Shown here: positions 28,641 through 34,303 of the stretch, piece after piece
Position numbering within the stretch: the stretch's first letter is position 1
How the letters are laid out: each line of letters starts with the position of its first letter
Assembly: GCA_017792465.1 (NCBI GenBank)
Contig: CP051234.1
Location: forward strand, 3,256,501-3,320,500
Reading direction: 5' to 3'
DNA: 64,000 nucleotides
Origin: Filomicrobium sp.
GTDB lineage: Bacteria; Pseudomonadota; Alphaproteobacteria; Rhizobiales; Hyphomicrobiaceae
Position numbers and translations under genes: made by a program
The notes under the pieces: model-generated
Seen by the model: the letters and a program-made list of their open reading frames with translations, nothing else
Told to the model about the DNA's origin: nothing
The model's database searches: none

Positions 28641-28952
28641 GCGCGCGACGGTCACCTATTCGATGCCCGTTTGGGCATTTTCGGGAAGGTTACTTTGTCC
28701 TTAGCAGTATCTTTACGCTGCCCAACTACCGTTAGTGTGGGAGCAGAAGTTGCGCGTTCGTCGTCGCAGCGTTTGCGACCGCGCGACTTCGGCAACATGG
28801 GCACGTGAGGCTTAAGGCGCAGTACGCTTTCGCAATGTGAAGTCTGGGCTCGTGTTCGGGTCACATCTGCGCAATCAAAGGTTTTGCTGCCCGGGAGAGT
28901 TGCGCCAATCCACACGGCGCAGGGCGCAGTAGAGTTCGGGCGCTTAACATCC
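28641..28952. other. Intergenic region before the pentapeptide-repeat gene
   Basis: 312 bases; probably the promoter region of the three-gene unit starting at 28953. No tRNA, repeat or credible gene is seen; the minus-strand frame here looks like a shadow. Confidence 0.4.
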
Positions 28953-29837
28953 ATGACCAAGTTCAATCCCCAGCGCAATTCGACCGTCGTGGCGGAGCTG
29001 AAGCTATTGAACCCCTGGGTCGAGAACACCGATTACGGTGACGATATCGTCCAGTTGGCACGGGCGCTTTTGGGTGACATCGGCCCCATCTCAGAAAAAG
29101 CTCACTTCGAACAGCGGCTGGCGACGATGGGTCGGTTTGCTGCCGGACGTAAGACCTGGAATGCCTGGTCGCAGGATATGATGGAAGTGCGCAGCCTGGC
29201 TGATACGGACCCGGCGCTCAGTGCCGTTTGCGATGCCTTGGCGATCGCCAATTTCTCAGGGGCACGCTTTACCGAGAATATCGATTTCGCAGCGTTGATC
29301 TTTCCGGGCCGTTCGGATTTCAGCGGTAGCGAATTTGAAGCGGATTGCTGGCTGCAGGGCGCAACTTTTTACGGACCGGCCGTTTTCCGGCAGACGTCCT
29401 ATCTCGGCGAAACGAACTTCGAGCGTTCGACATTCAACGCGAGTGCTGATTTTTCCAACGCGGTGTTTGCGCGTCTGGGTCAGTTCCGCGAACTCCAGAT
29501 CCTCGGTCAGGCGTTGTTCGAATATACGGATTTTGCAAACGGCGCCTGGTATTCGGGCAGCACGTTTGCCGAAGTCTCGTTCCTTGATGCTCGCTTCGGC
29601 GATGCCGCTTCATTTACTGATTGTCAGTTTGCCGGCAGCGCAACTTTTGAGCGGGCCATGTTCCTGGCTTCGTGTGGTTTTGAGGGCGCGGCTTTCAAAC
29701 AGGCTGCCAATTTCCGAGATGTGAACGTTGCGGGAGCTGCCTGGTTTTATGGTGCTGAGTTTGCGCAGCCGGCGGACTTTCAGGGCATGACCACGGCAGG
29801 CCGTGGCGATTTTCAGGACTTAATGGTGCCGGTCTGA
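28953..29837 (+). CDS. Pentapeptide-repeat protein
   Basis: A 294-residue protein. Residues 1-95 are non-repetitive and helical. From about residue 95 to the end it is made of pentapeptide repeats of the A-x-F type (IANFSGARFTENIDFAALIF, then SDFSGSEFEADCW, TNFERSTFNASADFSNAVF and so on), expected to fold into a right-handed quadrilateral beta helix. Such proteins include DNA mimics (Qnr/MfpA) and scaffolds; nothing indicates which. The frame from 28884 is longer, but the ATG at 28953 starts a normal N-terminus. It is 49 bases upstream of the DisA_N-like gene and probably cotranscribed. Confidence 0.85.
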   Translation: MTKFNPQRNSTVVAELKLLNPWVENTDYGDDIVQLARALLGDIGPISEKAHFEQRLATMGRFAAGRKTWNAWSQDMMEVRSLADTDPALSAVCDALAIANFSGARFTENIDFAALIFPGRSDFSGSEFEADCWLQGATFYGPAVFRQTSYLGETNFERSTFNASADFSNAVFARLGQFRELQILGQALFEYTDFANGAWYSGSTFAEVSFLDARFGDAASFTDCQFAGSATFERAMFLASCGFEGAAFKQAANFRDVNVAGAAWFYGAEFAQPADFQGMTTAGRGDFQDLMVPV

Positions 29838-29886
29838 TAAGGCGGCGCCAAATGACGATGCGAACGAATAGCGAGGCTTATCCGTT

Positions 29887-31359
29887 TTGTTGAAAGAACC
29901 CGACATACAGCCGCAGGTGACCCAGCAGGCGCTGTCGGCTGGCAAGCGTATCTCCGTCTCTCTTGAATCGTTCGAGCAGGTTCGCAGCCTGCTGGAGAAA
30001 TTCAACGAAGATTGTGAAATCACCTTCGTCGTGGCTTTGCATGACCAGAGCGGCATCCACATCGCCTCCAGCGCCGATACTCGTCCGGCTTACGTCAACG
30101 CAGCATCGCGCCACATATCCGCTGGCGCCAAGAGCGTTGAGTTTGTTTCTTGCGAAGACGAACGCGAGCCTGCCTTCGAAGAGGCAACGCGCAGTTACTT
30201 CGACCGACTTGAGTGCGCCGCGAATGGCGGTGAGTTTGTGTTCAAATCGGTCCGCACGGAGTTCGATTATCGTACAGTTGGCTTTCTGGTGACCTCCGCG
30301 AACGGCCAGTCCGGGCAGGAGGCTACGGAAGGCAATTCGCGGGCGTTTGAGATCAAGCGGTTGTTTGATGCGCTGATCTATGTGTCGCTGCAGTACTGCT
30401 TGTCGCCCAGGCAGTCGGATACGTTTTTTGGTCTTGCGCCTGACCTTCTGTCGCGCGCTGCCGCCCAGCTTTTCTTGCAGAAGCTATCGCAGGAAGCGAC
30501 GGGGCGGATGAACTACGGTCTCTACGAGTTGTGCTGCGACCTGGCAGCGGCCCAGTACGAAGGGCGCTCGGGGGCAGGCTACATCGTTCTTGCCAAGCGC
30601 GGCGATCCTAAAATCAAGCCGAGCATCGAGTTTCGGCGGCCGATCCATCTGTCGCACAAGACGGGCGCGCGCAAGCTTATCGAAATGGCTTCCAAGCAGT
30701 TCGCGTTGCTGTTTGACGGCGATTACTTCTACGGCTTTTGCGATTTCGACCAGACGAAGGATTGCACGCACGTCTTGTTCAAAGGCCGCGGGATCTGGAC
30801 GATGCAGCGCGGCGAGCAACTGCTGGCGATGATCAACTACGGTACGCCTGTCGAAGCCGAACGCATTTTGACAAAGCAGCTGTTTCAGGCGCACGTCAAG
30901 CAGGTCTTGCCGATGGTCGATGCGGAGGGGCTTGAGACGCTCTGGAACATCGCGATCATTGCGGCGCGGCAGCCGGTCGGGACCAACATCCTGTTCACGC
31001 CTGCAGCGCCGAAAGAAGCACAACGTCTATCCTCGCAGTGCATTCCGATCCGCCCGGTCGCGTTGACAGCGGACGTAACGACCCAGCTCACGGCCATCGA
31101 CGGGACGCTGATTGCGGACGTCAACGGCAACGTTCATGCGGTCGGGGCCATCATGGACGGCGGCTCGACGGTGAGCGGCACCTGGCAGCGGGGCGGGCGA
31201 TATAACTCTGCGGCCAACTACGTGACGAGTTCGCCGCATCCGGCGATGATCTTCATCGTCTCGCAGGACGGCTACGTGGATATCGTGCCGCCGATGAATC
31301 CGAAGGGCGATAAATGGTCCATGAAGCGGTACCTAAAGTTGAACTCCACTGCCATCTGA
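29887..31359 (+). CDS. Protein with divergent DisA_N (diadenylate cyclase-like) domain and unknown sensor region
   Basis: A 490-residue protein, apparently soluble, that I do not recognise as a named gene. The C-terminal 130 residues resemble the DisA_N nucleotide cyclase fold: IAARQPVGTNILFTP, then an Asp405-Gly406 loop (TAIDGTLIADVNGNVHAVGA), a GRYNSA block at Arg438 and the IVSQDGYVDIVP end. In known c-di-AMP synthases these positions are DGA and RHR; here they read DGT and RYN. That suggests either a different nucleotide product or lost activity. Residues 1-330 would be a sensor region of unknown type. It starts at a TTG (GAGG ten bases upstream) and overlaps the next gene by 46 bases. 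Confidence 0.72.
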   Translation: MLKEPDIQPQVTQQALSAGKRISVSLESFEQVRSLLEKFNEDCEITFVVALHDQSGIHIASSADTRPAYVNAASRHISAGAKSVEFVSCEDEREPAFEEATRSYFDRLECAANGGEFVFKSVRTEFDYRTVGFLVTSANGQSGQEATEGNSRAFEIKRLFDALIYVSLQYCLSPRQSDTFFGLAPDLLSRAAAQLFLQKLSQEATGRMNYGLYELCCDLAAAQYEGRSGAGYIVLAKRGDPKIKPSIEFRRPIHLSHKTGARKLIEMASKQFALLFDGDYFYGFCDFDQTKDCTHVLFKGRGIWTMQRGEQLLAMINYGTPVEAERILTKQLFQAHVKQVLPMVDAEGLETLWNIAIIAARQPVGTNILFTPAAPKEAQRLSSQCIPIRPVALTADVTTQLTAIDGTLIADVNGNVHAVGAIMDGGSTVSGTWQRGGRYNSAANYVTSSPHPAMIFIVSQDGYVDIVPPMNPKGDKWSMKRYLKLNSTAI

Positions 31360-32321
31360 TCGGGGTCCTCACTCCGGCCTTGTTGCGGGATCTGCGTGCG
31401 GATGGGCATCCGATCCTGGTCGAGCCTGAGGCTGCTGCGCCCGTTCAATTCGGCGAGGGTCCGGATGGCTTCGGGCGGTGGCTGACGCGCGTCGAGCCCT
31501 ATAAGTCGGCCGGTTGGCGGACCTACCTTCCCATTCTTGGCTGGTATATCGACAAGCTTGTCGAGCAGAATGTCGTCTATGCCGAGATGATGATTTCGCC
31601 CTTGATGTTTTCGCGCGATTTCGGAGCACTGGCGCAAGAGTTTGAAGAATTCCGCACTTGGGTTCGAGAACGGGAAGCCGGACGCATCCAGATCGAGTTT
31701 CTGTTTCTGGTTCCGCGCAGCCTGCCTGACGAATTGATCGAGAAGGATACGCAGCGCTGCGTGTTCTTGGCCAAGGACAACGGGATTTCGGGCATTTCGA
31801 TTGCGGGATTGGAATCGCATATGCCGGCCTCGCGATTTTCGCGCATGTGCCGTGAACTCAAAGATCATGGGCTCGGTATTGAAATCCATGCCGGTGAGCT
31901 TGGCGGTCCGGAAGAGGTTTGTGAAGCTCTTGACGTTGGGTTTGCCGATCGTATTGGACACGGGATCAGAGCCTTTGAGGATGAAGATCTCGTGGCGCGG
32001 CTTTGCGATGAACAGGTCCACCTGGAATTTTGTCCGACGAGCAATTTGAAAATGGGAGCTGCAAAATCAATCGCGGAGCACCCAATCGGGCGGGCGCGCG
32101 ATCTGGGGATGAATTTTTCAATCAATACCGATGATCCGGGCGCATTCGGCTGCAGCATGACGAGCGAGTTCGAGCTCATTCATAGGTACTTTAGTTTTTC
32201 GAAAGAGGATTTCAGCAAGGTCGCGCAGAATTCGCTGGCATCAAGGTTCGCAAAAGAGCTGCGATGTAAGGTTGCGGCGAATCTGGAGCGTGCGCAATCA
32301 GAGGTCGTAGCGCTCGCTTAA
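31314..32321 (+). CDS. Adenosine deaminase family amidohydrolase
   Basis: A 335-residue TIM-barrel amidohydrolase with all metal and catalytic residues of the adenosine/adenine deaminase family: His12 and His14 in KVELHCHLIG, the His-Ala-Gly-Glu motif in EIHAGELGG, the RIGHGI histidine, CPTSNL, and the paired Asp of NTDDPG. It would deaminate adenosine, adenine or a related nucleoside or nucleotide in the cytoplasm. The ATG at 31314 lies inside the end of the previous gene, giving a 46-base overlap and likely translational coupling. In this context it might process the product of the cyclase-like protein; this is inference. Confidence 0.88.
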   Translation: MVHEAVPKVELHCHLIGVLTPALLRDLRADGHPILVEPEAAAPVQFGEGPDGFGRWLTRVEPYKSAGWRTYLPILGWYIDKLVEQNVVYAEMMISPLMFSRDFGALAQEFEEFRTWVREREAGRIQIEFLFLVPRSLPDELIEKDTQRCVFLAKDNGISGISIAGLESHMPASRFSRMCRELKDHGLGIEIHAGELGGPEEVCEALDVGFADRIGHGIRAFEDEDLVARLCDEQVHLEFCPTSNLKMGAAKSIAEHPIGRARDLGMNFSINTDDPGAFGCSMTSEFELIHRYFSFSKEDFSKVAQNSLASRFAKELRCKVAANLERAQSEVVALA

Positions 32322-32572: not shown

Positions 32573-34303
32573 ATGAGCAATGTTTTTTTATCTGGTCTCG
32601 ATAGCGGTTATCATCTGACCAGCACTACGATCACATTCGCTTTTAGCGACGCCTACTTCGCATGGAACACTTACGAAGAGGCGCAGTTCCGTGCGGCCCT
32701 GGAGCAATGGTCGAACGTTGCGAATGTCACTTTCGTTGAGACCGCGAACCAAGCTCAAGCGGATTTTCGGCTGTTCAACGTCGACGACAGCATCATCGGT
32801 TCGGGCGTCCTTGCAGACTTCGAATATCCTTATGGCGGTCAGCAATTTGGCCGCTTCAACTACGAAGGGCTTGGCTGGGACTACGACAATACGACCGGGG
32901 GCCTCGAACAAGGCGGCTACGGGTATTCGACCATCCTGCATGAGGTCGGCCACGGCCTCGGGTTGGCACATCCGCATGACGCGAGCGGTTCCTCGACGAT
33001 TTTTCCCGGTGTCAGCAGCCCGTGGGACACCGGCAACTACGGCTATAACCAGGGCCTCTATACGGTCATGGGCTATAACGATGGCCGGGTGGTCGATGGG
33101 CTCAGCCCCTACACGATCGAGAACTATGGCTGGTCCGGCGGGCCGATGGCCTTCGACATCTTTGCCATCCAGCGCATCTATGGCGCCAACACCAGCTATA
33201 ACACTGGCGATGACACCTACTCATTGCCGGAAGTGAACGACACCGGCACGTTCTATCAGGCGATTTGGGATGCAGGCGGATTCGACACCATTGCTTATGG
33301 TGGATCTGCCGCGACAAACATCGATTTGAGAACGGCGACCTTGCGCTATGGCGATCCGCATGCGGGTGGCTATCTTTCGACCGCGGCAGGGATCTACGGC
33401 GGCTTTACGATTGCGGCCGGCGTCAGGATCGAAGCTGCCAGTGGCGGCTCGGGCAACGATCGCATTATCGGTAACAACGCACGCAACGTCATCGATGGGA
33501 ATGACGGGGATGACCTGATCAAGGGGCTGAACGGTCACGATCTCTTGCGGGGTGGGGCCGGCGCTGACGTTATCATCGGCGGCTACGGTAGCGACACTAT
33601 TGAGGGCGGTGATAACGATGACCGTCTTTATGGCCAGATCGGCAATGATTGGATCGAGACCGGTGACGGTGCCAACCTCGCAGACGGCGGCGACGGCAAC
33701 GACCGCGTTATCGGTGGCATTGATGCCGACAAAATCTATGGCGGCGCTGGTCGCGACGCTCTGCTTGGCGGCGACGGCAACGACATGATTTGGGGCGGTG
33801 ACGACAACGATGTCCTGGTTGGTGGCAGCGGAAATGATCGCCTGATCGGCCAGCGCGGTGTGAACCGTATGTATGGTGAGGACGGCGACGATGTTCTTGT
33901 CGGCGGCAATGAGCGAGATCGTTTGATCGGCGGCAATGATAACGACCGCCTTGTTGGCCGAGGTGGCGATGACGTTCTTATCGGCGGCGACGGCAATGAT
34001 ACCCTGATCGGCGGGCCGGGCCGCGATTTCTATTACGGTGGAGCTGGCGACGACAGTTATGTGTTCTCGAATGGGGACCGCGATATGGCCGTCATTCAGG
34101 ATGGCTGGGGTGACGATCGTATCGTCAGGTTTGCAGATGGCGAAGACATCTTGAATCTGCGCCAAGTGAGCGGACTGACGAGTTTCAATCAGCTGACAAT
34201 TACGGCCGACGGCAATGACACGCTTGTCACCTTCGGCGCGGACAGCATCCGGTTGGTGAATGTCGATCCGTCACTCATTACCGACGACGATATCCTGATT
34301 TAG
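32573..34303 (+). CDS. Serralysin-like RTX metalloprotease
   Basis: A 576-residue secreted-type protein. The N-terminal M10 domain has the zinc motif HEVGHGLGLAH (His123, Glu124, His127, His133) and the Met-turn at Met166 (YTVMGYN). A peptidase C-terminal domain follows, and from about residue 295 to 500 there are many calcium-binding RTX nonapeptides of the GGxGxD type. There is no N-terminal signal peptide, as expected for type I secretion, where the signal is C-terminal. Serralysins degrade extracellular proteins. No ABC transporter/MFP pair for type I secretion is adjacent, so it must be exported by a system elsewhere. Confidence 0.92.
   Translation: MSNVFLSGLDSGYHLTSTTITFAFSDAYFAWNTYEEAQFRAALEQWSNVANVTFVETANQAQADFRLFNVDDSIIGSGVLADFEYPYGGQQFGRFNYEGLGWDYDNTTGGLEQGGYGYSTILHEVGHGLGLAHPHDASGSSTIFPGVSSPWDTGNYGYNQGLYTVMGYNDGRVVDGLSPYTIENYGWSGGPMAFDIFAIQRIYGANTSYNTGDDTYSLPEVNDTGTFYQAIWDAGGFDTIAYGGSAATNIDLRTATLRYGDPHAGGYLSTAAGIYGGFTIAAGVRIEAASGGSGNDRIIGNNARNVIDGNDGDDLIKGLNGHDLLRGGAGADVIIGGYGSDTIEGGDNDDRLYGQIGNDWIETGDGANLADGGDGNDRVIGGIDADKIYGGAGRDALLGGDGNDMIWGGDDNDVLVGGSGNDRLIGQRGVNRMYGEDGDDVLVGGNERDRLIGGNDNDRLVGRGGDDVLIGGDGNDTLIGGPGRDFYYGGAGDDSYVFSNGDRDMAVIQDGWGDDRIVRFADGEDILNLRQVSGLTSFNQLTITADGNDTLVTFGADSIRLVNVDPSLITDDDILI

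Follow-up and report, generated by a model that had tools for sequence, protein, structure and literature searches.

The DS-2 anti-phage system comprises a phospholipase, a cGAS/DncV-like nucleotidyltransferase (CD-NTase), and a diadenylate cyclase (DAC); its report describes the loss of defence after mutation of either one of two DAC residues predicted to be catalytic (DeWeirdt et al., PMC13092281). Adenosine deaminase (ADA)-type enzymes also act on nucleotides in immunity. Cad1, a CARF–ADA protein of type III CRISPR, is described as converting ATP to ITP (PMC11645235), and RdrB, the ADA partner of the RdrA ATPase in RADAR, is reported to deaminate ATP and dATP, with no significant activity on adenosine or AMP in that report (PMC9994260). 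Here, we describe a three-gene locus in a 64,000-nucleotide stretch of Filomicrobium sp. DNA (assembly GCA_017792465.1, contig CP051234.1, positions 3,256,501 to 3,320,500, forward strand), hereafter the window. The locus encodes a pentapeptide-repeat protein, a DACNH–DAC protein, and an ADA-family protein. It is not a member of DS-2, the cyclic oligonucleotide-based anti-phage signalling systems (CBASS), Cad1, or RADAR; judging from sequence, its likeliest reading is that it would work like a cross of a DS-2/CBASS-type cyclase and a Cad1/RADAR-type deaminase.

The middle protein shares with the DS-2 cyclase (PMC13092281) the DACNH and DAC domains and the RG.R[YF]N motif, and its DGT motif is found in the E. 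coli member of that family. It differs in that no DACNG was found, in having another N-terminus and no C-terminal extension, and in scoring below the DS2_3 cut-off, while its locus has pentapeptide and ADA genes as partners and no nearby phospholipase or CD-NTase. Canonical DacA, CdaA, and DisA (PF02457) show the common layout DG[A/T]...R.x...S.[DE], whereas the window protein has DGT, RYN, and SQD for DGA, RHR, and SEE, and no direct Pfam match. The ADA protein resembles Cad1 as described (PMC11645235, PMC12669630) in its proposed tie to an adenine-nucleotide signal and in having a non-acidic residue at the position of mouse ADA Asp19. Unlike Cad1, it has no CARF domain, it keeps the Asp296 equivalent (Asn in TaqCad1), and its signal source would be a DAC instead of Cas10. 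RADAR likewise couples an NTP-using protein with an ADA-fold deaminase, which makes ITP (PMC9994260), but the trio contains no AAA+ ATPase gene, and its deaminase has 335 residues. Adenine and adenosine deaminases (3ou8, 3rys; TIGR01430) belong to the same sequence family and share the zinc-binding and catalytic residues; the window protein departs from them in the nucleoside pocket, with Ile for Glu/Asp, and falls below the TIGR01430 cut-off.

Organization of the Locus

The pentapeptide-repeat gene (28953..29837, +) starts with ATG and encodes 294 amino acids with five Pentapeptide_3 stretches (PF13576, E 4.8e-26); its frame is already open from a TTG at 28884. After a 49-nt gap (29838-29886), the DACNH–DAC gene (29887..31359, +) starts with TTG and encodes a 490-residue relative of the DS-2 subunit DS2_3. 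Its 3′ end overlaps the ADA-family gene (31314..32321, +) by 46 nt. The layout given in the initial annotation, with three plus-strand genes, this gap and overlap, DGT at residues 405-407, and RYN at residues 438-440, was exact to the base. The trio is more than a set of chance open reading frames: all three products have Pfam matches, and the genes recur together in eight genomes of the genus. A tRNA scan of the window found none, and promoter and terminator scans gave chance-level results only.

The Middle Protein Is a Distant DS2_3 Relative

Homology identifies the middle protein as a DACNH–DAC protein and a distant relative of DS2_3. Pfam PF21750, the DACNH probable sensor domain, matched residues 210-301 (30514..30789, +) above its cut-off (E 4.5e-16). 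Residues 184-483 matched NF053872, the NCBIfam model for the DS2_3 ‘anti-phage protein’, with 252.9 bits and E 5.3e-75, where the equivalog cut-off is 630 bits. The DAC (DisA_N-type) domain (residues ~350-473; 30934..31305, +) was placed from the NF053872 match, alignments, and a weak profile–profile match of the wider family. Pfam DAC/DisA_N (PF02457) did not match the protein at E ≤ 1, and the DAC assignment follows by transitive homology, because homologues reach the Pfam model. Among 72,556 plasmid records, seven contained homologues aligned within residues 177-472 (tblastn, e.g., 2e-31 for Dyadobacter and 4e-31 for Gluconobacter). Five of these seven are annotated as diadenylate cyclases, all carry DACNH, and five reach the Pfam DAC cut-off. 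Thus, the earlier proposal that the C-terminal domain is a divergent DisA_N domain was borne out, although without a direct Pfam match. A wider profile detected four further homologues in viral contigs, and a near relative of the Citrobacter plasmid gene is present in 18 of 5,426 E. coli genomes.

The profile–profile comparison of the wider family with canonical DACs (12 rows chosen from 30 extracted loci) gave E 0.0026 and a probability of 11.6%, which is weak yet in register: the DGA motifs of the two align with each other, and the RYN-type motif falls on GTRHRAA. A control comparison between the genus DAC and the ADA alignment gave E 0.15. Searches of solved structures with the genus profile or the DAC-domain profile returned chance-level matches only. 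The window protein shows the features of the DACNH–DAC clade, namely PF21750 followed by a DAC domain with DG[AT], RG.R[YFL]N, and S.D.

The N-terminal region (residues 1-183; 29887..30435, +) is a candidate sensor or partner-binding part. It has no similarity to DACNG, which relatives have in that place, and neither a Pfam search with this region of the eight genus members nor a search of solved structures with their profile gave anything convincing. Its mean identity within the genus is 65%, the lowest of any part of the protein, and such variability might fit a sensor role. The DAC region has 90% mean identity, and the DACNH and DAC regions together range from 88 to 90%, with a median ratio of nonsynonymous to synonymous rates (dN/dS) of ~0.05.

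DGT and RYN Are Ordinary Motifs of the Clade

The DGT motif (residues 405-407; 31099..31107, +) stands in place of canonical DGA, and RYN within RGGRYN (residues 438-440; 31198..31206, +) in place of canonical GTRHR. All eight genus members have DGT and RYN, and all 12 canonical rows have DGA and GTRHR. In the main motif alignment of 15 rows, comprising three of the eight genus members and 12 outsiders, D-G, R-G-x-R-x-N, and S-x-D are invariant, and RGGR is particular to the genus. R[YFL]N occurs in every one of the 12 outsiders, RHR in none, and DGT in four. A 13th outside sequence, the fragment from genome G056 described below, carries DGT and RYN, bringing the totals to 13/13 for R[YFL]N and 5/13 for DGT. 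With these counts outside the genus, the initial view that the two substitutions indicate a different nucleotide product or nucleotide binding only is not supported.

An E. coli protein (locus L123) scored 818.8 bits against NF053872 and carries both DGT and RYN; its gene is flanked by annotated anti-phage phospholipase and anti-phage nucleotidyltransferase genes. Because this DS2_3-family member shares the substitutions and DS-2 is reported to need its DAC residues (PMC13092281), they belong to a functional clade. On these alignments, DGT and RYN are ordinary for the clade and offer no argument for a dead or altered cyclase. The two motifs were dropped as marks of a lost cyclase, as relatives including the DS2_3-family member share them.

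Loss of the final Arg is not confined to the DACNH–DAC clade, since eight weak-DAC proteins from other genomes read GTRH[NTIA] at this site. DACNV was found in all six of these proteins that were run against Pfam. SQD, the genus version of the third motif, occurs in six of the eight. The invariant Asp of S-x-D in the window protein is aligned with the second Glu of SEE, which we take to be the metal-binding acid of CdaA.

Overlap of the Cyclase and Deaminase Genes

The dual-coding overlap spans 46 nt (31314..31359, +), and within it the TG of the cyclase TGA stop completes ADA codon 15 and the A opens codon 16. By direct reading, a Shine-Dalgarno-like GAAGGG (31302..31307, +) lies 6 nt upstream of the ADA start, inside the cyclase gene. 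The same overlap was found in 8/8 genus members, each with the ADA ATG preceded at 6 nt by GAAGGG (AAAGGG in one). The mean synonymous difference drops from 0.62 for the whole cyclase gene to 0.12 inside the overlap, and from 0.72 for ADA beyond the overlap to 0.03 inside it, figures that come from 14-15 codons and 28 non-independent pairs. Because of this drop, both reading frames look selected. The ADA gene is probably translationally coupled to the cyclase gene. No classical slippery heptamer for a ribosomal frameshift fusing the two products was seen by eye in the overlap.

The Deaminase Has an Altered Nucleoside Pocket

The ADA-family protein matched Pfam PF00962 (A_deaminase) with E 7.1e-53, and the HxH, HAGE, GHG, and DDP motifs are intact in all eight genus proteins. 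Codon 16 (Ile; 31359..31361, +) falls on the acidic nucleoside-pocket position, equated with mouse ADA Asp19 by motif and by alignments to 3ou8 and 3rys (both Glu). This position after HxHx is Ile in 8/8 genus members and Glu in all 36 distinct comparators that cover it; the comparators (38 rows, 37 distinct, one ending before the site) are the best matches outside the genus and thus a biased sample. The window protein therefore lacks the acidic residue of the canonical HxHx[DE]G, through which adenosine/adenine deaminases contact the ribose or base. It scored 191.6 bits against TIGR01430 (cut-off 216.55) and 21.5 bits against the NCBIfam RdrB model (cut-off 800). Among solved structures, 3ou8 matched with 136.2 bits and 9ebt, a CRISPR-associated ring nuclease and adenosine deaminase, with 62.6 bits, so that Cad1 is a distant relative by sequence. 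The sole PADLOC match for the trio was CARF_ADA (E 1.4e-29), covering profile positions 340-583 of 605 only.

Asp19 of mouse ADA is described as contacting the 5′- and 3′-hydroxyls of adenosine; the corresponding residue of the ATP deaminase TaqCad1 is Gly (PMC12669630). We infer that the window ADA would not act on free adenosine. Since codon 16 begins with the final base of the cyclase stop, only a cyclase gene terminated by TAG would allow Asp or Glu at this position. Several residues are possible at codon 16, and Ile was nevertheless kept in 8/8.

Distribution of the Trio

The cyclase was detected in eight of the nine genus genomes (window included), in 0/26 other genomes of the family, and in 1/24 other sampled genomes of the order, some of the searched genomes being incomplete. 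A profile search of 297 order genomes returned three, which were the genome of the window, one genus mate, and G056. In G056 (L056:550-2267), a DS2_3-like cyclase is divided between two reading frames, next to a SMODS-like gene. DACNH was found in one of 385 sampled genomes of the class, that of the window itself, in agreement with the expected rarity of such proteins in Alphaproteobacteria, and NF053872 in two of 398 genomes of the phylum. Canonical DAC occurs in 82 of the 398 phylum genomes, mostly in one family of another class, and the genome of the window has no match to PF02457.

The ADA profile at full strength matched the same eight genus genomes and 0/26 other family genomes, and both the cyclase and ADA are absent from the ninth (G007). 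Distant ADA-family matches were found in 8/24 other order genomes, and 44/190 sampled class genomes have ADA-family matches. An ortholog of the pentapeptide gene lies upstream of the cyclase in all eight genus genomes that have the latter, with one copy cut by a contig end. With all three genes in eight of nine genomes and the same overlap, the trio is a conserved unit within its genus, as first proposed. Public records of seven homologous loci, assigned to Filomicrobium (four) and Alphaproteobacteria (three), match seven genus mates in their identities; because they are the same genus mates, the number of independent members is eight. The cyclase was not found in any of 50,697 phage records, and viral contigs searched with the genus profile gave no match.

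The anticipated linkage of homologues with the deaminase and pentapeptide genes held in the genus (8/8) and failed outside it, as counted below. The trio is a unit, perhaps one that was inherited from a single event. A search of the literature on these domains and on diadenylate cyclases with ADA, pentapeptide, CBASS, or defence returned no such trio among the matches listed, although a review of DAC architectures may mention it. This agrees with the initial annotation, to whose author no described pathway with this trio was known. Of the interpretation as a whole, the DAC-type domain, the unit, and the rarity stood, and the step to an altered product or a binding-only protein was not supported. 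The suggestion made there that the deaminase edits or removes the cyclase product may yet hold.

Proposed Mechanism and Alternative Explanations

We give roughly even chances to a reading of the locus as a nucleotide-signalling cassette related to DS-2, in which a nucleotide deaminase serves as effector or regulator. Homology shows that the middle protein has a DAC domain with the clade motif set DG[A/T], RG.R[YFL]N, and S.D. Together with the unique N-terminal region, DACNH would sense a cue, and the protein would then make an adenine-containing cyclic dinucleotide, most simply cyclic di-AMP. The ADA protein, as effector or regulator, would deaminate a phosphorylated adenine nucleotide and not free adenosine or adenine, because Ile replaces the ribose-contacting acidic pocket residue and the catalytic residues are intact. 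Precedents are the ATP-deaminating immune enzymes Cad1 and RADAR, with Gly at this position in TaqCad1. The deaminase could either be switched on by the signal and act on ATP, or deaminate the signal itself. As a guess, the pentapeptide β-helix protein might serve as a scaffold, a second sensor, or an effector.

If so, the locus would join immune chemistries that we know only separately, the DACs of DS-2/CBASS and the nucleotide deaminases of Cad1/RADAR, and the product of an anti-phage-type DAC could be studied in a natural context that lacks a CD-NTase. The pairing may represent a new mode of signalling or of nucleotide-pool poisoning, and the Ile16 pocket yields a testable substrate prediction.

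Several observations weigh against this cassette reading. The middle protein has 252.9 of the 630 bits required for DS2_3, with only residues 184-483 aligned; the genus-only DAC domain was not significant against canonical DACs in the profile–profile comparison, and the genus has SQD where the 12 alignment outsiders have S[ED]D. ADA or pentapeptide genes were found near none of 13 other DACNH–DAC loci (4-11 kb each, some ending at a contig end) and near none of 12 loci of weak-DAC proteins, and the linkage, seen in one genus, may represent one evolutionary event. According to the DS-2 report, 15 of 30 homologues of the DS-2 DAC lay with CBASS (PMC13092281); because this is only half, an immune role may not extend to the whole clade. 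The neighbourhood is housekeeping-like, and PADLOC on 10 flanking genes matched three methyltransferases only, weakly and to one model. On the deaminase side, Pfam found no CARF or other receptor domain, so signal activation would need another site. A single pocket residue is thin evidence for a substrate, the other canonical pocket residue, the Asp296 equivalent, is retained, and Ile16 may have arisen partly through the overlap, since its codon begins with the A of TGA. In TaqCad1, the reported N549D/G264D substitutions raised but did not rescue adenosine deamination, so these residues were not the main determinants there (PMC12669630).

The nearest competitor, possible though somewhat doubtful, is a housekeeping role, in which a domesticated DS-2-type cyclase would serve a second-messenger system fixed on the chromosome, for osmotic, ion, or nucleotide-pool control, and not immunity; this would be compatible with the first three steps above. 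The presence of the trio in 8/9 genus genomes among ordinary genes fits such a role, as does the strong conservation of the DACNH and DAC regions; several relatives, by contrast, are found on plasmids, in phage, or with CBASS. On the other hand, the experimentally validated member of the clade is described as anti-phage (PMC13092281). The 46-nt overlap that couples the cyclase and ADA could instead reflect a signal-editing pair, an unlikely arrangement in our estimate, in which ADA turns the adenine cyclic dinucleotide into an inosine-containing one and thereby ends or remakes the signal. ADA is a catalytic domain alone, without the receptor domain that would suit a signal-activated effector. 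Furthermore, a cyclic dinucleotide has its 3′- and 5′-oxygens esterified, and since Asp19 is described as contacting exactly those hydroxyls (PMC12669630), Ile would remove both contacts. ATP as a substrate would, however, also explain Ile16. We know of no ADA-fold enzyme that acts on a cyclic dinucleotide. A more specific form, which we hold to be improbable, is that the co-translated ADA deaminates the adenine cyclic dinucleotide to give an inosine-containing second messenger or an off-switch, the shared stop and pocket codon recording the welding of the pair.

The loss of the final Arg of RHR, SQD for SEE, and the missing Pfam DAC match would also suit a DAC domain that binds a nucleotide without catalysis. 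This seems improbable as well: the same RHR change is present in 13/13 relatives, among them the DS-2 family, which is reported to require its DAC catalytic residues for defence (PMC13092281), and that Arg is likewise missing from eight DACs of DACNV or similar type. Least probable of all, in our judgement, is that an ordinary purine-salvage deaminase and a pentapeptide protein merely overlap or adjoin the cyclase gene. Overlapping genes are common in bacteria, and 44/190 sampled genomes of the class have ADA-family matches, but the ADA gene is the sole ADA-profile match in each of the eight genus genomes and is present or absent with the cyclase, the overlap is identical in 8/8, and Ile16 appears in no comparator.

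Genomic Surroundings

The trio is flanked in the window by RNA methyltransferase-type genes, a sirtuin, another methyltransferase, an RTX metalloprotease, and cysNC, and the locus is not a typical defence island. The methyltransferase gene that comes before the trio in the window is also present in G007, which lacks the trio, and is succeeded there by other genes. G001, and G005 as far as its contig reaches, have differing upstream surroundings, with the trio directly against cysNC. The upstream flanks thus vary across the genus while the trio stays intact. The serralysin-like RTX metalloprotease just downstream (window 32573-34303) adjoins the trio in some genomes of the genus and is absent from the stretches covered in others. 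The GC content of the 1-kb windows over the trio, 0.54-0.59, showed no contrast with the neighbourhood and no sign of recent foreign origin.

The genome of the window gave no match to a SMODS CD-NTase, and two of the nine genus genomes have one. None of the 10 flanking genes tested encodes a CD-NTase, and the locus therefore does not have the CD-NTase next to an effector that defines CBASS. Three of the seven plasmid homologues adjoin CBASS-like genes, two of them with a patatin phospholipase and a nucleotidyltransferase and one with a SMODS CD-NTase; no CBASS-like gene is annotated near the other four in the plasmid gene tables, which are incomplete.

Other cyclases of the wider family were found in diverse contexts. 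The E. coli DS-2-like locus (L123:2069-9738) is followed directly by a second CBASS with a phospholipase, DncV, and an E2/UBC family gene. A DS2_3-like DAC (L119:1-1722) with 578.1 bits, below the 630-bit cut-off, lies beside a phage integrase gene at 1800-2963 (−). In a viral contig (L120:4314-6122), a DACNG–DACNH–DAC gene is located between portal and head-maturation-protease-like genes of a phage head operon, apparently as cargo among the structural genes. Four loci (L127, L128, L129, and L133) encode proteins with response-regulator, PAS, DACNV, and DAC domains and GTRH[TIA], and in the family of these four, three sampled genomes (G420, G428, and G474) have two weak DAC matches each.

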